Source: Ochotona curzoniae | Taxonomy: Eukaryota > Chordata > Mammalia > Lagomorpha > Ochotonidae | Length of the DNA: 64,000 bases | Direction of reading: 5' to 3' | NCBI RefSeq assembly: GCF_017591425.1 | Contig: NW_024465746.1 | Span: 1,860,001-1,924,000, forward strand | Shown: positions 808-50,600 of the stretch, piece by piece | Numbering within the stretch: the stretch's first letter is position 1 | How the letters are laid out: the number at the start of each line of letters is the position of its first letter | The notes under the pieces: model-generated | Seen by the model: only the letters and a program-made list of their open reading frames with translations | Told to the model about the DNA's origin: nothing | The model's database searches: none | Position numbers and translations under genes: made by a program

Positions 808-1003
808 GCAGCCTGGGGCCCCGTGGCTGGGGGGCCACAGCGGGGCAGCCTGGGGCCCCGTGGCTGGGGGGCCACAGCGGGGCAGCCTGGGACCCCGTGG
901 CTGGGGGGCTACAGCAGGGCAGCCTGGGACCCCGTGGCTGGGGGGCCACAGCGGGGCGGCCTGGGACCCCGTGGCTTGGGGGGCCACAGTGGGGCGGCCT
1001 GCG
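808..1003 (+). repeat. 37-bp GC-rich minisatellite, about five copies
   Basis: The unit CAGCCTGGGACCCCGTGGCT + GGGGGGCCACAGCGGGG starts at about 809, 846, 883, 920 and 957, with a degenerate sixth start near 995 after a one-base insertion. The period is not a multiple of three, so it creates overlapping open frames on both strands that are not genes. Confidence 0.95.
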
Positions 1004-10189: not shown

Positions 10190-12260
10190 CTTAGCATATC
10201 CACAGGTCCAGACACGTGATGCAAAGCCTGGCTAGGAGAGTTGTCCACCTGTTGTGCTTTCCATCCTCTGATGAGGCACTCGGCATCCCCTGCTGACCTG
10301 GTCCACACGTGAACTGATGCATGCTGCCACCTTGTCCAGCATGGCCCAACCCCAGCCCTGGTTCACAGACTTACTAGTGGGATCTGCAGCGTAGCAAAGA
10401 AGTGCCCACAGTTTCCCTCCCAGGCCTGCTCCCAACCCTGGATCTTGTCACTTGCCAGGGACTACTCACTGTGGTCCAGCCTGATAACAATTCACGTGCA
10501 GTCCCAGCACTTGCCAACAGGTGCTTTGGCCTAGCCCGGCTGGCCTGCACTCATTTTGGTTCTCTTGCATGCCAGTGGGTGCTACAGTCCTGCCCAGACT
10601 GGTTCCCTTCCAGTCCCAGTTCTCATGCTCACTAGTGAAAACGGCAGCCTACCAGAGGAGTCCTTGAAGATTGGCTACCTAGCCTGTTCCCAGCCCTGAG
10701 TCTTGAACCTGCTGGCAGGTGCTGCATCCCAGTCTTGTATAGCTTGTTTTGAGTCTTGGCATTTGCTAGCAGGGGCTGCAGCTTGGTTCAGCACAGCCCA
10801 CTCCCAGTCTCAGGTCTTGCCAGTGGGTGCATTAGCCTAGCCCAGCCTGGCCCACTCTTAGCCCTGGCCCTCATGTGAACTTGTGGGTGTTGCAGCCCAA
10901 TCCAACCTGTGCTGCACCTTTTCCTGGCTCTTGCTTGTGCCCATGTGTGCTGTGCCCTGGCCCAGCCCAGTTCGCTCCCAGACCCGTTCCTTGTTAATGG
11001 GTACTGCAGCCTGGCCTGGTTTGGCCTATCCCTAGCCCCTGGTCTCATGCTCATTAGCATGAGTGGCAGTCTATTAGGTGAGTTCCCCAGGTTGCCCTAC
11101 CAGAACTGTTCCCAGCCTTGGATCTCGTGTTTGCCTGTGGCCCAGCCCGATCAGCCTGCAGCTGTTCTGGCTCTTGCTGGAGGGTTCTACAGCCTAGCTG
11201 AGCCTGGTTCACCCCCAGAAGCCGCACTTAAGTGAATTTGAGTTGGTGTCATCTGTTTGTGTCCATTCGGGCTCTTGTGAGCGCTAGCAGATACTTAGAC
11301 CTAGCCTTATCTGGCTGCCCTCACACCCAGCCCACATGCATACTAATGGGTGCTACTGTCTTGCCCAGCCCAGCCGAGCCCAGCATAGTCTACCCTCAAC
11401 CCTGGTTTGCTTGCTCCCAGCCCTGAATCTCATCTGTGCCATTGGCCCTGCTTGGTATGGTCTGCCCTGGCCTTTGCCTGTGCTGGTGGATGCTGTGGCC
11501 TGGCCCAACCTGGCCTCCTCCCAACTTCAGGCTCCCATGAAGTGTTGATGTGTTCTGTGGTCCAGTTTGGCTCGGCATGTCACCACCCCCAGCTCATGTA
11601 CAGCTCATGTGCTGCATTCCCACAGAGGCAAGCTTACAAGTCTCCGGCACAATCTGCCTCAAGATCTGATTTTCTTGTGTTCTGGTGGGTCCTGTGGCCC
11701 AGTCTGATGTGGACTGTGGCAGGTGATGCTGCAGTCTAGCTCAGCCAGGTGCAACCTCCAGCTCCAACTTCCATGTGTACTGGTGGGTGGTAGGCGATGC
11801 TGCTTAGCCAAAAGCTAGGTCTCCTGTGTGGGCAGGTACCTTGGCCTGACCTCTGCATGCCCTCCACTTCCGTGTCTCTAAGCCACTCTGTCTCAGCATC
11901 CTTGCCTACCTGTGAGCACAGCGGCCTGGTTCGTGGAAGCTCCCAGAAGTCACCCTCATGTTTCCAGCATGCCCTCAGGGAGCCACCACTCCATCATATC
12001 CCTTGGCACTCTTCCCTGGACATTCTGTAGCCCCCACACTGCATGGCGACCTGCAGTGTGCCTGGGGACCAGGGCACACTCACATTTCCTGCCTTCTGTA
12101 GCTCTGTGCCCAGAATTTCCAGCATGTTTTAGAGAAAATAGAATAGACAACTAGACTAGTATAGTTAACACAGATTAGGCATTAATCAGATCCAGAATAC
12201 ATGCCAGCTCTTGGGTGTTTTTCTTGCCTAGGTACAAAGCAAACTAGACAGTTACCTACA
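10190..12260 (+). repeat. GC-rich degenerate tandem repeat element, unknown family (copy 1)
   Basis: Same type of sequence as 46.1-49.3 kb: recurring CAGCCTGGCCCA, CCCAGCCCTGG and GGTGCTGCAGCC phrases at intervals of roughly 60-75 bases between 10.3 and 11.8 kb. It then passes into a less repetitive tail ending with TGCCAGCTCTTGG and ACAGTTACCTACAGCTGG, which resembles 49190-49300. Short open frames in every phase are a by-product of the base composition. Confidence 0.55.
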
Positions 12261-12359
12261 GCTGGTGTTCATTTTGTTTTATTTAAAGTGTCTGTGTGTG
12301 TGTGTATGTGTTAGATGATGTTTACATAGTCAATCAGCGTGGGAAGCATATGGGGTTAG

Positions 12360-12880
12360 GGAGAAGCGGGTGTGATCGTTGTTTCCAAGCTTTCTATTTC
12401 TTGTTCCCATTTCTGGGGGAGGGAAGAGATAAGGGCATAGGCCGTACCCAGCCTCCCCACCCTCCCAGTACCCGAGGATGGGGAAAGGCCACCCGATATC
12501 AACCCAGGGTCACAATGGTGCATGTTCCGAATGGTCTGCTCAGGTGGATGCGATAGTTTCCAAATGCTGTGCATCTCACCGATCTATGGATGAGGAACCC
12601 CTTCCAGTGTGCATTGGTTGACACCATCGACTTTATAGTCTCCAATCACCCAGATATTTGCTGTCATTGTTTGGCTGTGATAGTTGTCCGTATGTTTTGT
12701 TCTCCATTCTCTGCTATGGCACCAGATGCCCTCTGCAGGCCCCAGTGAGCTGCCATGTCCTCCATGTGCACCATGGTCTGCCGTCCAGCACTCCATCCTC
12801 TATACTATGGAGGACCAGTTCTCCTAGGTGGGCTCATGGTCCTGGGCCATGCGACCCAGGCCCTGCTGGACTCACACCTG
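12360..12880 (+). repeat. Segment related to the left end of the GC-rich element
   Basis: Contains CCCTCTGCAGGCCCCAG and GCCATGTCCTCCATGTGCAC followed by GTCTGCCGTCCA, resembling 46260-46350. Here it follows the element rather than precedes it, so the order of blocks is permuted between the two copies. The similarity is estimated by eye. Confidence 0.4.
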
Positions 12881-33200: not shown

Positions 33201-36200
33201 ATTAGGGTTGGCATTTGCCCTTGTCCTAACAGGACGTCTGTACCCCGTGTGCTGGCTTCGGGTTCTTCCTCAGTTCTGGTTTCAGCTCCTGCAGGCAGCA
33301 GCGGCTCCATGGCGAGGCTGGGTTAAGTGCCTGCCTGCCGTGTTGCCTGGCCCGGCCCGCACTACGTGGGCATTGGGTGCAAGTCCATGCTTAAGAATGT
33401 CTGTGTTTTAAAGTTGGCAGTTTGAGCTTGCGTTGACTTGTACCCAGCTGCAAGAAATTGGAATGTAAAAAATGTCTGCTTTTCTCAGTCTGAAGCTGTG
33501 CAAGCAGTAATTCCTCCCAGATTTTAGTGCAGGAGTTTTTCGTGTGTCTTCTATTTTTCTCTTTAAAAACATGCTGCAAGTTTGAAGTTTTGAGAAACTA
33601 ATACACTCGTGTTTTTTAGACAACTGAGTGACCTAACTGGTGACTTTGCTTCTAGTTTCGCTGTTAAGAGTGTTAAAGTTTAATCTCTTTAAAGGCAGGT
33701 CACAGACAGTGGGAGAGGAAAAAAGAGGGAGAAGGAGAGTGCTCATCCATGCGGGGTCGGGAGCCAGAGCCAAGAAGCCAACCCAGGCTGTCCAGTGTGG
33801 AGTGCAGTGTTGTAACTGCTGGCTCAGCAAGCCCCACAGGATTTCAGACTAAACCAACATAAGCTATCTTCTCATTCCATTTTTTCTGTGTCCTTTTTGC
33901 AGTCCACTCATGATTTCCTTAATTCACGTATTAACTTGTTTTAGCACACAGGCCAATTGCACAGGTATTGTGCGCTATAGTAACACTTGCTCGTTCTTAG
34001 CTGTTTTCTGATGCCTTGTGGCTATTCTGTTAGCTAGCTCTTCCTTGAATGACATTTTTCTTCCCCTTGCCCTCTTAAATACTTACCAGTTCCTCTATTT
34101 TTAAAAGATTTAGTTTATTTATTTTTTTGTTGAAAAGGCAGATATACAGACAGGAGAATCTTCCCTTCTGATGATTCACTCCCCAAGTGGCCACAACGGC
34201 CAGAGCTGAGCTGATCCGGAGCCAGGAGCCAGGAGCTTCCTCTGGGTCTCCCATGCTGGTGCAGGGTCCCAAGGCTTTGGGCCATCCTTGACTGCTCTCC
34301 CAGGCCACAAGTAGGGAGCTGGATGGGAAGCAGGGCCCCCAGGAACAAACTGGTGCCCATATGGGATCACGACACATGTAAGGTGAGGACTTCAGCTGCT
34401 AGGCTTCTGCACCAGACCCTTACTAGTTCTTTTAAATTCAGCTCATGTCATTTCCTCCAAAGCTCACCTCCTCCCCACAGGTGTTTTGGGACACACCCCT
34501 GCGTCTGTGAGCTTTGTCTGTGTGTTCCCATCCATGTGCCTCCAGTAGTGATCTTAGCAATTTCTGCATCTCATTCAAATTGCAACTTTTAGTACTGATT
34601 CCATTTCTGGCTGCTAGTAGGTGCTCAACAAACACTAAAATGTTAGATTTAATTAAGCCCCAAAGTACAAGAGATAATAAGCTTTAGTCCTCTAGTTTAG
34701 ATAATACATGCCAATATTCAATGATGACTAGCACCATTTGTTCTTATCAATTAAGTCAAGAACTTTGTGCGAACTTTTTGGAGTAGAAATGAAAATTGTA
34801 GAAGAAACAGAATCAATCTTTTATTTATGCTTGAGCAGATTTTGATATACTCTGAGTGAATTAGCGTCTTTTCTGTTGTTAACATCCTTTTATGATGTAA
34901 GGAAGTGAACAGACTCTTACCTCGCTGCTGTCATTGGAGCGGAGTAGCAATACAATGAAGTGGTATGTGCGTTTCTGCACTATTTTTCTTTGGTTATTTA
35001 GTATTCAAATTAACGTGTAGTATAGAATCCTAGGATTCTGAAATGGTATGTTCTGTAATGTTATATATAATGTTTGTATATCTAGACTTGCAGGTAGCAG
35101 GTATTTAGCTGAATACAGAACAACTGGTGGGAAAAGAATCATTGAGTCATGCACATGAGGTTCTCAGTTTCAGTTGAAACTTGCGTGCATTATCTTTTTT
35201 CTAGTAGTTATTTTTATATTTTCATGTTCTTTCTCCCCCCAAACGAAACAATAAAAGGCTTCAAGATCCTGAGGCTGCAGAGGACGTGCTTGCCAGGCCA
35301 GAGGATGCCCTTTGCGACCTCAGAGGCAGCAGCTGCAGCGTGGCCCTGCCACACAGGGCCCAAGACTGTGCTGCTGAGGTGTGTACGGAAGCTGCAGGTG
35401 AATTCAGTGTTCCGGTGGACAGTGCTGCACTTTGTACTTTGTCCTCAGAATCTCAAGACGCAAGTAGTAGTGAGAGCAATGAGAATCTCGTTGACTGCAA
35501 ATCGGCATCACAAGCAGAGGCTGGCAGCAGTTCCCAGGAGTCGGCTGTCTTAGATCAGGAATTATACAACTCTTTCCATTTCTGGAGGACTCCTCTCCCT
35601 GAAATAGATCTGGATGTGGAGCTTGAAGAGGACACTGGGAAAAACCTCAGCTCGGAGGAATCAGAGGCAGCACCTGAGATCCCTGGGCCAGCTTCTCCAA
35701 ACATCACCGTGGCCAGCAGACGGGAGCTCGAGGAAATGATCGAGAATCTTGAGCCCCACATGGACGATCCAGATGTTAAAGGTGAGGGAGAGTCGGGTGA
35801 TGCGGATGATCCAGATGTTAAAGGTGAGGGAGACTTGGGTGATGCAGATATGGACACAGTGGTGGTTTTTACAGAAAAAACTGTAGGCTTTAACAGGTAA
35901 AAATGCTTGTTTTCCATGGAATGTGGTGTTGTAAAGGGTTGAAGTTTGTTGTTTTTCTCATTGAGAGATGCAAAGTGAGAGGGCACTGGTAACCGATTCA
36001 CTTCCTAGTCCTAGAAGCCTGGGAGCAGGCCCAGGGCTCTCCCAGGGAAAGTGGCACAAAGAGTTCCTTCACTGTTGACCTTCCCCTAGCATTTCTGCAT
36101 AAAAAGAAAGCTGGAGTTAGGAGAAAGAGATTTCCCCCAACCATTGGTTTACTCCCTAGATGGCCTCACGGTGAGGGTTGAGCCAGAACAAAGCCAGGAG

Positions 36201-41600: not shown

Positions 41601-44600
41601 CCACAGTCTCTCTTGCTTTTGGTCATTGTATTTCTGGTTATCAGATTTTTCTCCTTGGGGCAGGCTTCTAAACTCTGTCACCCACACGTCTACAGTTCAA
41701 TTTTACTTATTGCAGTTGGTACCTGGTACTTTGTTTGCAGTCACTTGTGCCACTCCCTCCAGCGAGTTCCAGGTCTGGGTTCTTCTTATGTTAGACTTCC
41801 ACCATAATCTCCACAGCCCCAACTCCTGACTCGCCACTCTCCACCTCCTGTAATAGTGTGTTGAGGCTGCACTGTTGTCTGTAGATAGATTCTTTCTAAA
41901 ATAGATTCTTTTCCATTTTAGGCTCAATGGAAAAGCTGAGCTTTTTAAGCACTCCTGGTTAGAAAAATCATTAAGATTTTAGGGATTTGTGACTAATCCT
42001 TGGTACGGTTTATGAAAGAGTTAGAGATCAGAAAAGATGAGCTCAGCTCCGCTGACCACCTCAAGGAAGGAGTAAATACAGTGATCCCAGAAGGTACCCA
42101 TTACCAAGCGTGTGTTACTTGGGACTGTGGCTCTTCATAATTCTTACACTGCAATGAACCAAATCTGTTTGGCTGGTTTCTGCCGTCATGGGTCTTCTGT
42201 AAGTGTGTGCCTAAGTTCTTTGGTTTTTCTCACTGGGATTATATTGACCTGTGTGTGGTCAGCAAAGCATGGACAGTTTAAAACTTAAGAAAACCAGCAG
42301 CAGATGAGGCTCCCTGATGTGCATTTCCGATTCGTTGCTGCCTGAGTAGTTTCTGGATTTCAGTCTGTGCTGCAGGTGAAGTGCAAGTTTTGACCAAGAC
42401 GTGACGTGTGTGTTGCGTTCCTTGTACCCTCCTGGGTGGACTCTGAGCACGTTAGCAGCCACTGAGCTGGATGGCAGTGTGCTCACTGGGCTCCGCTGTC
42501 TTTTCAACACTTAATTGATGCTGCCAGGTTCACATTGTAGGTCACTTTGTGTCAGCAACGCCAAGCGGAGGGAGTAGGGTTACAAAGAAGACAACATGCA
42601 CTGGGTCATTCCTGCAAAGAGAATGCCACTTTATTGAACTGCAGTCTGCCTTTTATGCTCTCTAGTTCCTCCCAGTGCTTTTCCAATGCTCAGGCAGCTC
42701 CTAACCCCGGGGGGCATCTTGATAAAGGGGAAGTAGGAACTTGTGGTCAAGCAAGGAGCTAAATGTATCAGGCCAAGATTACACATCCTGTTACCTCTTG
42801 AGAAACAAGCTAAGCTGTGGTGTTAACCCTTGGGAGACCTGGTCCTGCAACCTTGTGTGATTTTACAAACAGGATTAACATAGGCAGAATCATGGCCTAC
42901 TAGTCAGTTGCCTTCTGTGAAAGCTCTGATTGGGTACTTCCCAGGGCACAGAGCTGCAGTGCCACAGGGCACACGCACACACCTTGTGCCTGTTTGTATC
43001 GCAGTGTTTTCACACCGTTTTATTTTGGTTGGGGAGCAAGGTACAAACTGCGGCTACAGTTCTGCCAAGAATGAGGGTTCTCCGTTAGGACTTTGCACAA
43101 CACTCAGTTACTGGATTTAGCCAATAATGACCTTCTAGAGAAGAACTTGTTTCTGTCTGTGTCTTGCCTCTCCATTACCACTACTTAATGCATTTAGACA
43201 GAAACATTTTGTTAGACTGTCTTCATAAAGCACTTAACTGATTCATTAAAATTTTTTTTAAAATTTGTGGTCACTGAAGCAGTGTTATAGTATTTTTTTA
43301 ATTTTATTTTTAAAAAATTATTATTAATTACATTGTTTATATGACTCAGTTTTATAGGTACTGGGATTCCCCCTACCCCTCCCCTAACCCTCCCCCCCAT
43401 GGTGAATTCCTCCACCTTGTTGTGTAACCACAGTTCAAGTTCAGTTGAGATTTTTCATTGCAAGCATATACCAAGCATAGAGTGCAGCATCTTATAGTCT
43501 AGATAAGTTTAACGGCTTCTTAGGGAGACCTTCTCTGGTCCCCGTTCAGCTGGTGGTTGCAGTTGCTCGGTTGGTTCCATCTTGAGCCTCAACTTCCACT
43601 GGAATCAATGGGTATTGTAGTCCGTCCTGGTTCTGCTCATCACGTACTTGGCCATCACATCAACCTCTGGGAGCTGTATCCTAGTGGGAGAGATCCCCAA
43701 TAACCCCCACCTGGCCCGCCCCTGCCCTGATTTGCCAGCATGTGTAGCAGCATAGTTCAGTCTGCCCCACATCCCATTCGGCTCTCGTAAATGTTGAGGG
43801 GCATGATTCATTTAAATTTGCATGTTAAGCATTCCTATTTGGAGCCTCCAAGTGAATTGTTATTTAAAATAAGTGGTAAGCAGTTGTTTTTGTGTTTTGT
43901 TTTTGCTGAATTTCAGATTTATTTATGGGTGGAGGTTAAACAAGTTTTTTTTTTTTCATAATTTTTAATCACCTTTGTAAGGAGATTTAAGAACCACTAC
44001 TTTTCTGCAAGCAAGACAGTGTTCTTTGGGGATCCCTAAGTTTGGGACAAGGTATGAGTTTCGTTTTCAAAGAGAAATTATGGGAAGATGGAGTGGGATG
44101 GAGCTGTGAGATACTGAAACTGTTGTCATTGCCATTGTTTTGTGTTGGCAGGGTGTGTGTGGCTGCTGCTCTGCTAAGATAGCGTAGTAAGTAAGCCTTG
44201 CTGGTCTGATTCCCGCACTACCAGACCTAGTGACTCACCCTGAACGCGACTCGGCTAATACCCTGGAGGTGCCTCCAGCGATTAGATAGCCTCTCCTCAT
44301 ACTAACGCAGAATCATGTACAGTAGTGGATACACGTTTCATCTCATGAAAGCATAATTCGTTTTCTACTTTTTCCTCTGGAGAACTAATGATTTACTACA
44401 GTAGAAGTTTTTTTTTCTTTTTTTCAGCTTTTTGATGACAAAACCAAAAATTTACACATTTCATTGGTAGTGTATAAAGCAAGTGGAGAAAGACCCGTTT
44501 GACCTGTGAGCGTGCTCACCCCGTGTCCTCCTTATTCCACAGCCCAGGTGGAGGTGCTGTCTGCCGCACTCCGCGCATCTAGTCTGGATGCCCATGAGGA

Positions 44601-47600
44601 GACCGTCAGCATAGAGAAGAGAGGCGATCTGGAAGATGATCTGGGTATAAATGAGCTACCAAACTGTAAAATAAGCCACGATGATACTGTGCCTTTAATC
44701 AGCGATGCCATTGAGGTAAGGAGCCCAGTCCAGTGTTACCCACGAGTGGGAACTGCTGCTGTCAGAAGTCTCTGGGCCTGGAGTAGTTGCAGCTCATTAC
44801 CCTGTCCTTCACACCTTCTGTTTGTTGCTAGGTCTTCAGCTCTTCCTTTTGCACAGAAGAAATTGATCCTTGGTCACCAGGGCCAGTCCTTTTAAATGCC
44901 TGGGGGGTAAATCCCAGTCCTGGCTCCTGTCAGTTGACATAACTCACTATAGTGAAATCATCTTACTGCAAACAAAGCCCTTTATCAAGGATAATTAACT
45001 CTGTCCTTTTCTCTTTGGAGAGATGCTTTGTTTCCAACGAGACCATTTCACTGCAGTGAGCAGCAGTTTTCTGAGCGGAAGATCGGGACTTGAGGCCATG
45101 GTGCGGAGGGCCAGTGGCATTATCTGGACTCTGGAGTGTGAGGGTGGCTACCGAAAGGCACTGGCACGTCTGTGCTGCCAGCCTGTAGCGCTTCTATACA
45201 GCCCTTCCCCCATTGCCCTGCTCTGTTCGTCAAGCCGCATGATTTTGCTAGGGGTATCTCTTACCCCTGCCATGTACGCATACAGGAGGAAAACACCCCT
45301 GCTTGTTAGGTGTGGAGGCCCCAGGTCATAGCTGGTTCACAGGAGGCCTGCACACACAGCAGGTGGTGGGAGGCTCCGAAGGGCATGTTTCTGTTTGGAT
45401 TTCATTAGATGACATCTGCTACAGTTAGGAAGCTTCTGAATAAAATCCTGAACCTTGATTTGGAGATTTGAGCACTATGACCTGTCTTGCTTTTCAGGAT
45501 GGTTGAGGTTTTGCTTTTTCACTGTTAACACGGGCATTTGTGAAAGTAGACAGTTACAGCCTTGGTTCGAAAGAGTAGCAGCAGCACTGTATCTGATGCC
45601 TGATGTCTCTAAAGCAGTTAACTAAAAGAGCCCTCTCAATGCCATTACTCTTGTTTCCTGGAACTATTTTCATACCTTCTAGCAAGTTTGATTTAAGGGA
45701 AAGGACACTTAGAAGAAACTAGTTATCTTTATAAACTCTGAAGCAGTACAACATCGTTAGCTGTCAGTGTTTGGGGCGTGCTGCTGAAAGGTGAGCAGCT
45801 TAGTGAGATGAAATGGAGCAGGCGTGGACACAGGACAGCACGCTAACCAGGCGTTCTTCCCTAACAGACTATGGACTCCTCCCTTCACTACATCCACAAT
45901 GATTCAGACTTGAGCACCAGCAGCAGTTTCAGCCCTGATGAGGAAAGGAAATCCAAAGTCCAAGTAAGTGACCAGCCCTGTCTTCATTAGAGCTGTTTGT
46001 TTTGAGTTTTAATGATAATTCTTTGTTTTTGGATGATATTTGTATAGTTGAAAGAGATACTTGCCCGAGTTGACCATCAATTAAGACTAGAAAGAAATGG
46101 AGGAAAGTGGATGAGACAACTGCCTCCAATCTCTCTCTCTCTCTCTTTTTTTCTTCCTGTTATCTGGGGAAAGTGTGGGGAGGAGACAGGACCGCTCCCA
46201 GTCTCAATTCACCCAGAAACTTGCTGTGGAAGCTTGACCAGGAGAGCTTTCCGATTTGTTCTGCCTTCTATGGTACTAGCTATCCTCTGCAGGCCTCAGA
46301 AAAGAGGTTGTCATGTCCTCCATGAGCATCTGGGCATGCTGTCCACTATACAGATCTCAGCAATCATGAAGACCTACTTATGACATGCACAGTCAAACTG
46401 TGAACCCGTAACTTTCCCCGTGGCTGTTCTTCCGAGCTCAGTGATCCAGTTGGGGAGTTTAGGAATCCCCAAAGAAACCTTGCCTGAGGTGATCCCAGCC
46501 CCAGCCCCTGTGTGTGCTAGTCGGTGTGGGGTCGGGCTCAGTCCATCACTGACATTAGCTTAGATACCTGTTGCAGTCAATCTGATCATTTCTGTTGTCA
46601 GCCCCATCTCATATGCAATGCAATGGATGCTGGGGCCCAGCCTTGCCCGCCACGCACGCCAGTGGAAACTGCAGCCCAGTAACCCCCACCAGACCTGCCC
46701 CAGCCCTGCTTCTTGAGCATGCCATTTGGCTTTTATATACATCAATGGGCATTGGAGCCTAGCTCAGCCCGATGACCCCACTGTCCAGCCCACATTCATT
46801 CACTGGTGGGTGCTACCATCTGTCCAGCCAAGCCCACCTCCAGCCCTGGTTCTCATGCTCACCTGTGGGAACTGCAGCCCATCAGATGGGTACTGATCAT
46901 GTCCTTATTGGGCCCATTCCCAGATCTTGCACTTTCCAGGTGTTTCTGTGGTGTAGCCTGACAGGACTTGCCACCCCCTTCTCCCCCCCCCCCCCCCAGT
47001 CCTAGCACCTGGTAGCTAATGCCGCAGCAGAACCTACCCAGCTTGCGCTTACCCTGGCTTGTGCATGCACCATGGCTATGGTCACTTAGCCCAGCCTGTA
47101 CTCTTCCCCCTAACCCAGCACACATGTAGGCCAGTGGATTTGTAGTCCTGCCCAGCCTTATCTGCCCCCAGTTCCAGCTCTCATGCTCGCCAGCGGAAGT
47201 GGTGGCCCAGCTGGGGAACCCCCACCGCTCCTCATTGGGCTTGTTCTTCATCCTAGATTTTATGTGTGCTGATAGGAACTGCAGCCCAGACTGGCATGGC
47301 TTGCCTCACCTCGGAATTCACCAGCAAGTGCTGCAGCATGACTGCCTGGCCTGCCACTAGTCCCAGCTCATGCTGGCGGGTGCTTTAGCCTTGCCCAGTC
47401 CAGCCCTAATGTGAACTGGCTGGGACTGTGGCCCAAACCAGCCTGTCCTGCACTCTGTCCTGGTTCTTATAGCTGCCAGTGGGTGCTGTGAACTGGCCTG
47501 GCCGGGCTGCTCCCAACCTTGATTCTTGGGCTCTCCTGCAGGGACGATATCCTGACAGTGGAGTTCTTTACATTTCTTTATCAGGTCACCTCCCTGTGAA

Positions 47601-50600
47601 AGATCTCATGTAAACCTGTGGTTTTTTTTGCCCTACATGACTTGGCCCACTTCCTATCCTGGCAGGTACACCCATTTTGACTCTTGTTGGGTGTTATAGC
47701 CCAGTGCTGCCTGGTCCATCCCCCAGTCCCAGCTCTTGCGTGGTCTTACTGGGTGCCAAGACCTAGCCCAGCCTGTCCTACACCCACCTTGGCTCTTGGG
47801 AGCACCACTGGAAAGCTTACTCCATCCAGTCTAGCACATCCCAGAACCAGTCCACACCTGTGCCAGGGGATACTGTAGCCATGTCTAGCATTCTGACTCA
47901 CCAGTGGGAACTGCAGCCCAGGTGGCACACCCCTTTGGCTCCCCAACCAGGCTTGCTCCCAGCTACTGGTCTTGCACAATGCTGATGGTTGTTCTGCCCC
48001 AACCCGGCATAGCCAATCATCCATCTTGGCCTTTACCATCAGATGCTGCAGCCTGACCTAGCCTGGCCCAACCCCTGTCACAAGTCTTGCCGGTAGGTGG
48101 TGCAGTCAAACCCTGCCAGTGTGCCCCATCCCTGGCTTTTACACAAACTGGTAGGTGTGATAGCCTGGCCTAGCCCTGTCTGGTCTGCCCCCTTACCTTC
48201 AGAACTAACCCACACAAGTGCCAGTAAGTGAAGCAGCTGTGCCAGGCCTGCCCAAAACCCAGTCCTAACTTGGTGTGCTCACCTGTGAGAATGACGGCCG
48301 GCCTACAGGGTTGTTCCCCAAGTCTCACCAGGCCCACTCCCAGACCCAGCTCTTAGGCTTGCCTGCAGGTGCCAGGCCCTTACCCAGCACAGTCTGCCCC
48401 CTATTCTTGGCCTTTGTGTGTGCTGTGGGTGCTGTTGCCTAGGCTGCCCCACACCCAGTTCTTGGGTGCACCTGTGGGGGCTGCAGCCTGTACCAGCCTG
48501 GGCTGTTCCCAGCCACAGCGTGCCCATGAGTGTTGGTGAGTTCTGTGGTCATGCCCAGCTCCGCCCATCACCACCCCCAGCTCTTGAGCATACCAACAGT
48601 TATTGCAGTTCCACAAGGGTGAGGCCCATGATCCTCCACAAAATCTGCTCTTTTACTCAAGTTTTCTCATGATCTGGTTAGTGTCTTGGCCCAGCCAGAC
48701 ATGGTCCACCCCCGTCCTGACACTCACCTCCAGCTATGGCTTTTGTGTACACCAACATGCAGTGGTTGATGTGAAGCAGCCCAGCCCAGGTCTCCCTTGT
48801 GGGCACGTGTGTTGGTTTAGCCTCAAAAGGTCCTGTGGTTTCTGTCCTCTAAACCACTTGATCTCAGCCCCCTGGTTTATTTTCAAGTGTAGTATCCTGG
48901 TTGGCAGAAGTCACTCCGTGTCTGCCACATTCCCCCTCAACAGCCTCTTCCCTCCCACACATCTCCAGACCCACTTCCTGAGCAGTCCACAGCTTCCATT
49001 CCTGGTCCTCTGGTGATGTGCTGTGCTGTGTCATGCCAGCCTGGGGCCCTGCCTGCCTGTCTGTGCCCACACACACTCACACATGGGTCCCCTGACCCTG
49101 TCTGCTGGCGTGGGGGCATCTGCTGCCCACATGTCTTAAATATATATATATATATATGTACGTAGGCAACTGTGCTGGCACAGTGATATAGCTAATGCAG
49201 ATTTGACCAGGCCCAGGATGCCTGCCAGCTATTACCTGCCTTTCTCCCAGCAGTGGAACACTTACTTAGCTACAGTGCAACCTAGGCAGTTGCCTGCAGC
49301 TAGGAAATTTCCTTTCCTCATCAGGGCTGAAACTGCTGCTGGTGCTCAAGTCTGAATCATTGTGGATGTAGTGAAGGGAGGAGTCCATAGTCTGTTAGGG
49401 AAGAACGCCCGGTTAGCGTGCTATCCTGTGTCCACGCCTGCTCCATTTCATCTCACTAAGCTGCTCACCTTTCAGCAGCACGCCCCAAACACTGACAGCT
49501 AACGATGTTGTACTGCTTCAGAGTTTATAAAGATAACTAGTTTCTTCTAAGTGTCCTTTCCCTTAAATCAAACTTGCTAGAAGGTATGAAAATAGTTCCA
49601 GGAAACAAGAGTAAGTAGAACAAGTAGTAACCCCTTACAACAAGGCATTGAGAGGACTCTTAATTCCTCTTAAAAGCCGCTCAGACCTGGTTTAGTCTTT
49701 CTTTACAATGAGTGTTTTTAATGTTGAGATGAGCTTGCTGGGGGTCCTATGCTCCCCGTTGCTCTCGGTCCTGTGCTTTCCTCAGTGCGCCCCGGGTCTC
49801 AGTTCCTGGGCATCCCCCACAGATGCTCTCATCCCTTGGTTCCTCATATTTGTGGAAATATCCATGCATACACTTACGTGTTTTATAAAAGATAGTTAAA
49901 TTTCCATCCAGTTCAGACACTTTGGTTTGGTTTTTTTAAAAACAAGTTGCTCGTTTTTCATGAGAGTGACTGTTTCACTATTATTAAGGCACACATCCAA
50001 CTCCCATCACCTGTGCCTACCTTGGAACGTGAAGGTCTTATTTTTATTATGTCTTTTTAATTTACTTATTAATGTATATACTTATAAGAATCATGTGAAA
50101 GAAGGAATGTCATTGGGCTTTTAGAATTATGTGTTCAAACCACATTGAATCTGTTAAATACTAATCAAAGAAAGGGGGGAAAAGAGAAAAACAGAATCGT
50201 TTTGCATGGTTTCCGGTTTGCGTGTCTGCAGCTGTGTCACTGTCGCCCCCGTAGGATGTTGTTCCCCAGGCCTTGCTAGATCAGTACCTGTCCATGACGG
50301 ATCCCTCTCGGGCACAGACGGTCGACACGGAGATCGCCAAGCACTGTGCCTACAGCCTCCCAGGGGTGGCCCTGACGCTCGGCAGGCAGAATTGGCACTG
50401 CCTGCGGGAGACCTACGAGACCCTGGCGTCCGACATGCAGGTGAGGAGGCCCTGGAGGAGCGCCAGCGCCTGGGGAAGCACGAGCGTTGGCTCTCACTTG
50501 CCGAAGGACTCCTGTCTGTCCAGCACACGCTCAGGGTTTAAGGAGTTACGTGTGGCAGAGCTTGGAAGTCGTGCCGAGCTTGCTCCGATCCCTCGGTCGA

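Follow-up and report, generated by a model that had tools for sequence, protein, structure and literature searches.

An inverted, near-identical copy of a PPP4R1 exon region in the following intron of the pika Ochotona curzoniae: a probable recent template-switch duplication

Introduction

How does a conserved coding exon come to face its own reverse complement in the next intron of the same gene, and does the resulting RNA structure affect the exon? This question is raised by the PPP4R1 gene of the pika Ochotona curzoniae. A preliminary description of the locus noted the inverted copy and suggested that it might hide the exon from the splicing machinery or provide a substrate for ADAR. We analysed the copy within a 64,000-nt stretch of contig NW_024465746.1 (hereafter the window; all coordinates are window positions), in the surrounding contig and in the whole assembly.

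Results

Anatomy of the inverted copy

The left and right arms (Table 1) are identical at 306 of 308 positions without a gap (99.35%; BLAST E-value 2e-160 within the window), reproducing by sequence comparison the coordinates, the two mismatches and the spacer length of the preliminary description. That description was also right in naming the gene as PPP4R1, in defining a 96-nt exon with phase 0 at both ends, and in dividing the arm into intron, acceptor and exon. Both mismatches are intronic (45836 and 45849), and the exon part of the arm, 85 of the 96 bases, is identical in the right copy. The arms lie inside PPP4R1 on opposite strands, an intragenic inverted pair that exceeds both 300 bp and 96% identity.

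Table 1. Features of the PPP4R1 inverted pair and its host exon (window positions)
Feature	Position	Strand	Description or basis
Preceding exon (E10)	44543..44715	+	
Left-arm outer extension	45626..45643	+	17/18 bases match reversed 49644-49661
Left arm (putative source)	45645..45952	+	223 intron nt (upstream), acceptor and exon nt 1-85; sequence match
96-nt PPP4R1 exon (E11; TMDSSLHYIHNDSDLSTSSSFSPDEERKSKVQ)	45868..45963	+	phase 0/0; flanked by cag / gtaagt
Spacer, 3354 nt	45953..49306	.	last 11 bases of exon + donor + GC-rich stretch; between arms
Right arm (putative copy)	49307..49614	-	reverse complement in downstream intron; 306/308 identical
Filler, 29 nt	49615..49643	.	against 1 base on left side (net 28); alignment of arm flanks
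Right-arm outer extension	49644..49661	-	counterpart of 45626-45643
Following exon (E12)	50255..50440	+	

The copy extends beyond the 308 nt first described, with homology resuming behind the filler in an 18-mer that is equalled in only 1 of 3000 random flank pairs. Within the filler, AACAAGTAGTAA imperfectly repeats the end of the arm, AACAAGAGTAA, and neither of the filler's two 17-nt pieces has a second copy in the window when up to three mismatches are allowed. Beyond the arms only the 18-nt block stands out: in a search for diverged homology past the arms, 8% of 150 random pairs extended equally well on the outer side and 40% on the inner side. The GC-rich stretch of the spacer (about 46150-49130) is related to 10288-12787, and no clear tandem-array period was found in the spacer. 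A comparison with Rfam returned nothing at gathering score. As a separate observation, the right arm contains a possible pseudo-exon.

Rarity in the contig and the genome

The arm pair is the only inverted match of at least 95% identity and at least 100 bp, both in the window (1 of 59) and across 264 kb of the same contig (1 of 2391). The same-strand control over the 264 kb gave 1 of 2586 matches at 95% and 100 bp, with partners more than 20 kb apart, and 0 of 2586 at 96% and 300 bp. Among the remaining strong matches, many fall on the same few places and resemble SINE copies. Within the 2.08-Gb assembly the arm sequence occurs at exactly two places, both at the PPP4R1 locus, and a 456-nt query found no further copy of the region in the whole assembly. 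The inverted pair is real and uncommon.

Host exon and predicted RNA duplex

The exon is flanked by introns of 1152 nt (upstream) and 4291 nt (downstream), with 3343 nt separating its donor from the right arm. The PPP4R1 protein is 97% identical to that of Ochotona princeps, which bears out the lagomorph origin implied in the preliminary description and narrows it to a pika. The exon is retained in 165 of 168 proteins examined, the record of O. princeps (a different species) included, in a set whose clustering at 90% identity can conceal skipped isoforms; two frog records lack precisely this exon. Loss of the 96-nt exon preserves the reading frame, as the preliminary description stated, and creates no stop. 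When the splice sites of 16 exons were scored with general splice-site frequencies, this exon's acceptor ranked 4th and its donor 8th, and thus neither site is weak.

In the minimum-energy fold of a 4.26-kb segment, 305 of the 308 left-arm bases pair in register, and the fold energy is -1839 kcal/mol, as against -1408 kcal/mol after a single shuffle of the right arm. The long duplex envisaged earlier is therefore feasible on paper, and in the computed fold it lies at and next to the exon.

Discussion

Origin and age of the copy

The likeliest reading is that the pair is young and largely neutral. We consider it probable that it arose by a recent template-switch (TSM/MMBIR-like) inverted duplication whose arms can pair in the pre-mRNA, with little or no change in splicing as the likeliest consequence. 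A replication-based template switch would have copied ~326 nt, comprising the 3' end of the preceding intron and the greater part of the 96-nt exon, and the copy would have landed in reverse complement in the downstream intron, leaving the source exon intact and adding filler at one edge. Reverse-complement copies are known to arise by template switching (PMC8794818), and MMBIR leaves inverted templated insertions (PMC8421209). The locus shows the corresponding arrangement of a nearby reverse-complement copy with its source retained. That the left arm is the source and the right arm the copy is suggested by the left arm being the conserved exon. The right copy ends abruptly on both sides, and its 25-nt flanks share words of at most 3 nt, none of them abutting. 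Junction microhomology, inspected by eye, is weak, and the filler carries an imperfect local repeat. No poly(T) precedes 49307, and hence the copy has no poly(A) tail.

Assuming 2-4e-9 changes per site per year, two differences in 308 positions correspond to an age of 0.1 to 5.9 My, which would be a minimum if gene conversion had occurred. Dating by lineage-specific exon residues was tried and rejected, residue 18 varying among 119 orthologs (57 with S, 44 with N). The excerpted part of PMC9635661 supplies no date for the divergence of pika species.

Consequences and alternative readings

Before the transcript is spliced, its two arms can form a duplex of ~308 bp, which may attract ADAR and may somewhat reduce exon inclusion. 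Our model nonetheless favours little or no change in splicing, because transcription passes the acceptor over 3.3 kb before it reaches the pairing partner: given a distance of 3343 nt from the donor to the right arm and an upstream intron of 1152 nt, the acceptor may be committed first. Duplexes generally obstruct splice sites beneath them (PMC8052449), and so this expectation of little effect may be wrong. The stronger proposal is a self-targeting exon mirror, in which the duplex hides the branch site, the acceptor and 85 exon nucleotides and causes sizeable in-frame skipping, giving a PPP4R1 isoform that lacks 32 linker residues. The acceptor and exon do lie inside the predicted duplex, skipping would be frame-preserving, and it is precisely this exon that the two frog records lack. 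There are also precedents, in that an inverted Alu pair near an exon makes the RABL5 minigene exon alternative (PMC2533698) and in C. elegans reverse complementary matches favour exon skipping (PMC8330042). In the minigene, an inserted distance of at least about 68 nt restored inclusion, and skipping increased with a longer gap between both Alus (PMC2533698). Set against these points are the late arrival of the right arm behind the donor, splice sites that do not score as weak, and the retention of the exon in nearly all examined proteins of other species, clustered at a level that can hide skipping. We therefore regard sizeable skipping as a possible but rather unlikely outcome, and the preliminary interpretation as a whole as partly supported.

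The near-identity of the arms could instead go back to an older inverted repeat that gene conversion has homogenised over a tract of ~308 nt bounded by the filler. The match of 17 in 18 bases past the filler is consistent with such a history, and yeast inverted repeats are homogenised via template switching between arms (PMC8604942). However, the arms are not embedded in significant diverged homology, either outward or inward, which makes conversion unlikely as the source of the pattern.

It is more doubtful still that the intronic copy acts as an editing-complementary sequence through which the exon is recoded by A-to-I editing. The paired exon part has 26 adenosines, 23 of which change a residue when read as G, each of the two arm mismatches would set A against C in the duplex, and editing sites are abundant in conserved paired regions (PMC8052449). 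A duplex this long and near-perfect would, however, be expected to be edited promiscuously, and chiefly in unspliced RNA.

During assembly, a chimeric or fold-back read might have introduced a second version of the exon region into the following intron, and the division of the assembly into 1389 contigs makes such an error conceivable. A real, recent template-switch duplication is favoured over a fold-back artefact because of the two substitutions, the filler with its resumed homology and the 3354-nt spacer; the 456-nt query, moreover, finds no additional copy in the assembly. The artefact reading is weakened rather than removed, and we judge it improbable. Still less credible is the possibility that a young inverted mirror has turned a constitutive exon into a regulated, self-silenced cassette in one pika lineage, where recombination between the arms could also flip the 3354-nt spacer and thereby remove the exon's donor, a DNA-level off switch. 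Finally, a mobile element is barely worth entertaining: long inverted arms do flank a 3.35-kb interior, but one arm is formed by a conserved exon, no further copies were found in the genome, a TIR DNA transposon is rejected by the lack of an abutting target-site duplication (25-nt flanks share at most 4 nt for 45645-49614 and at most 5 nt for 45626-49661), and an L1-type retrocopy of unspliced RNA by the missing poly(A) and a longest common flank word of 3 nt, not abutting.

Either outcome of the probable template-switch duplication would be informative. If the duplex acts, the locus is a natural experiment on how a single copying accident can render a constitutive exon alternative or subject to editing, and the gene of related pikas provides the control. 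If it is inert, a near-perfect duplex of ~300 bp over an acceptor is tolerable as long as transcription of the second arm comes late, a finding of relevance to kinetic models of co-transcriptional splicing.

Comparison with known systems

Exon-intron editing duplexes, of which GRIA2 is an example, use an editing-complementary sequence. The pika locus shares with them the pairing of an exon to the downstream intron, but its predicted duplex is far longer and near-perfect. With the inverted duplicated sequences of Barak et al. 2020 (PMC7006430) it shares arms that exceed 300 bp and 96% identity within one pre-mRNA; across 49 organisms, pre-mRNAs held 54,479 such structures and mRNAs held 4. Whilst the repeats in the example of Barak et al. 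pair inside introns, one pika arm comprises a conserved coding exon and its acceptor. Intronic inverted Alus and reverse complementary matches that alter splicing likewise form an intramolecular duplex near an exon (PMC2533698, PMC8330042), whereas here the exon itself lies within a duplex that we have deduced from the DNA. The DUP/INV-NML local inverted copy-number variants are also inverted duplications split by copy-neutral DNA, but these were described in patients and are larger, the pika pair being much smaller and present in a reference assembly (PMC10766186). Among the matches listed from the open-access literature, as excerpted, neither this locus nor an intronic mirror of a constitutive exon is reported, which is weak evidence of absence; the one listed for PPP4R1 or its exon 11 is a GWAS and off topic. 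Template-switch and MMBIR insertions differ from the pika copy in scale, as it is 308 nt long and more than 3 kb away, whilst the insertions sought in PMC8421209 lay at most 100 bp from their template, and the derived state of the pika copy is putative. The copy shares with them a reverse-complement copy of a nearby source, retention of that source and filler at a junction (PMC8794818, PMC8421209).

An inverted copy of a PPP4R1 exon

A guide protein sequence located PPP4R1 exons in order in the window, from 15135 to 58152; it also matched the exon's inverted copy and, weakly and by chance, one further site. The first 18 guide residues were without a located match, and the acceptor chosen at 35258 has a poor score and may not be the right one. 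The joined exons form an open frame of 931 residues. Among the best 120 of 1661 proteins, the closest named mammalian ortholog is that of Ochotona princeps (97%), from which the differences are scattered, followed by Lepus europaeus (91%). This points to a pika as the source of the window, most likely a species other than O. princeps. Elsewhere in the gene, the exon that ends at 35781 has its donor inside a tandem duplication, which places another in-frame donor 42 nt further downstream; using it would add 14 residues.

BLAST within the window reproduced the arrangement given in the preliminary description: the end of an intron, the acceptor and most of a 96-nt exon (left arm) recur as a reverse complement in the next intron (right arm), with 2 mismatches, no gap and a 3354-nt spacer. 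This arrangement is rare within the stretch examined. At thresholds of at least 95% identity and at least 100 bp, the arm pair is the only qualifying inverted match among 59 in the window and among 2391 over 264 kb of the same contig. Among 2586 same-strand matches over the 264 kb, taken as a control, 1 reached 95% and 100 bp, its copies separated by more than 20 kb, and none reached 96% and 300 bp. Five inverted matches reach 93% and 150 bp in the 264 kb, and only the arm pair has its copies less than 20 kb apart. Against the whole assembly, a query of 45645-46100 gave five matches: one to each arm, and three short matches to intron part 45996-46083, outside the arm. Most of the spacer is a GC-rich stretch related to a second intronic one.

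Features of the PPP4R1 region and its inverted exon copy (window positions)
Feature	Position	Length (nt)	Remarks
PPP4R1 exon	45868-45963	96	phase 0 both sides; 85 bases inside left arm
Left arm	45645-45952	308	
Right arm	49307-49614	308	reverse complement of left arm
Filler	49615-49643	29	beyond right arm's outer end; left side has one base there
Outer extension	49644-49661	18	17/18 bases match 45626-45643
Tandem duplication	35766-35849		42-nt unit, 39/42 identical
GC-rich stretches	46150-49130; 10288-12787		same strand, 58-73% identity among the 12 matches listed of 13
Putative pseudo-exon	49325-49583	259	right-arm antisense copy
Donor-like site	45790		AAAG/gtgagc, intron part of left arm
Direct repeat	808-1001		near window start; offset 37 nt, 157 bp at 95%

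Origin of the inverted copy

The copied segment had been described as ending with the 308-nt arms; the arms stand, but homology resumes behind the filler. Of 3000 random flank pairs, 1 contained an 18-mer as good as this extension. Within the filler, the end of the arm is imperfectly repeated (AACAAGAGTAA, then AACAAGTAGTAA); neither half of the filler recurs elsewhere in the window at up to 3 mismatches. No significant homology was found farther outward or inside the arms.

A simple fold-back assembly error fits these marks less well, given the filler and the homology that follows it. The same is true of a retrocopy, since the inverted copy has neither a poly(A) nor a duplication abutting its ends, and of a transposon, since no duplication abuts the ends of either the copy or the whole unit of arms and spacer. 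Together, these features are better accommodated by a replication template switch, with stutter at one edge, that would have made the inverted copy. As judged from sequence, the arm pair is probably a young template-switch duplication.

Predicted consequences for DNA and RNA

If the arms recombined, the spacer would be inverted. The simulated product continues from exon base 85 into the other intron sequence, and the normal donor is lost. Exon loss would be likely rather than certain, because a GTAAGT noted by eye ~45 nt further along is a candidate cryptic donor.

In the minimum-energy fold of 45500-49760, 305 of 308 left-arm bases pair in register with the right arm, so the long near-perfect duplex previously proposed is possible. 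The fold energy is -1839 kcal/mol, versus -1408 with the right arm shuffled (one shuffle); the two arms alone give -614 kcal/mol. Both mismatches form A.C oppositions. The predicted duplex would cover the acceptor, an upstream CTAAC that we take to be a branch-like motif, and most of the exon, whose paired part holds 26 adenosines, 23 of them residue-changing if edited. By position frequencies, the right-arm antisense copy has sites resembling an acceptor (before 49325) and a donor (after 49583), which would bound a possible poison pseudo-exon (length not a multiple of 3), and the donor-like site at 45790 scores 7.07 versus 5.29 for the true donor.

When the exon is omitted, the joined exons stay in frame, in line with the original reading, and no new stop arises. 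Since the right arm lies 3343 nt past the donor and the upstream intron is 1152 nt, commitment of the exon may precede transcription of its partner. Given this late arm and splice-site scores ranking 4th (acceptor) and 8th (donor) of 16 exons on position frequencies, we expect skipping to be weak or absent and editing to occur mostly in unspliced RNA. Function of the arm pair is unproven, with a small effect, on kinetics, likelier than a large one.

The exon segment is kept in 165 of 168 examined proteins (best 120 of 1661 plus best 120 of 1191, lists overlapping). It is missing from one record flagged as unverified and contaminated by its source, and exactly this segment is missing from two poison-frog isoforms (Ranitomeya imitator and Phyllobates terribilis), so an exon-less PPP4R1 exists at least in annotation. 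No exon-less mammalian form occurs among the 168, in which 90%-identity clustering can hide such isoforms.

Comparison with known inverted structures

Long inverted structures are a known class tolerated mainly in pre-mRNA, as indicated by the counts of Barak and colleagues for structures >300 bp and >96% in 49 organisms (54,479 in pre-mRNAs versus 4 in mRNAs; PMC7006430). Reverse-complement copies arising by template switching are likewise reported (PMC8794818, PMC8421209, PMC8604942). As to splicing, an exon near inverted Alus is reported to be able to turn alternative (PMC2533698), reverse complementary matches to promote skipping in C. elegans (PMC8330042), and conserved pairings, which avoid branch points, generally to obstruct the splice sites they cover (PMC8052449). 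The PPP4R1 pair is unusual in having a conserved exon, together with its own acceptor, as one of its arms.
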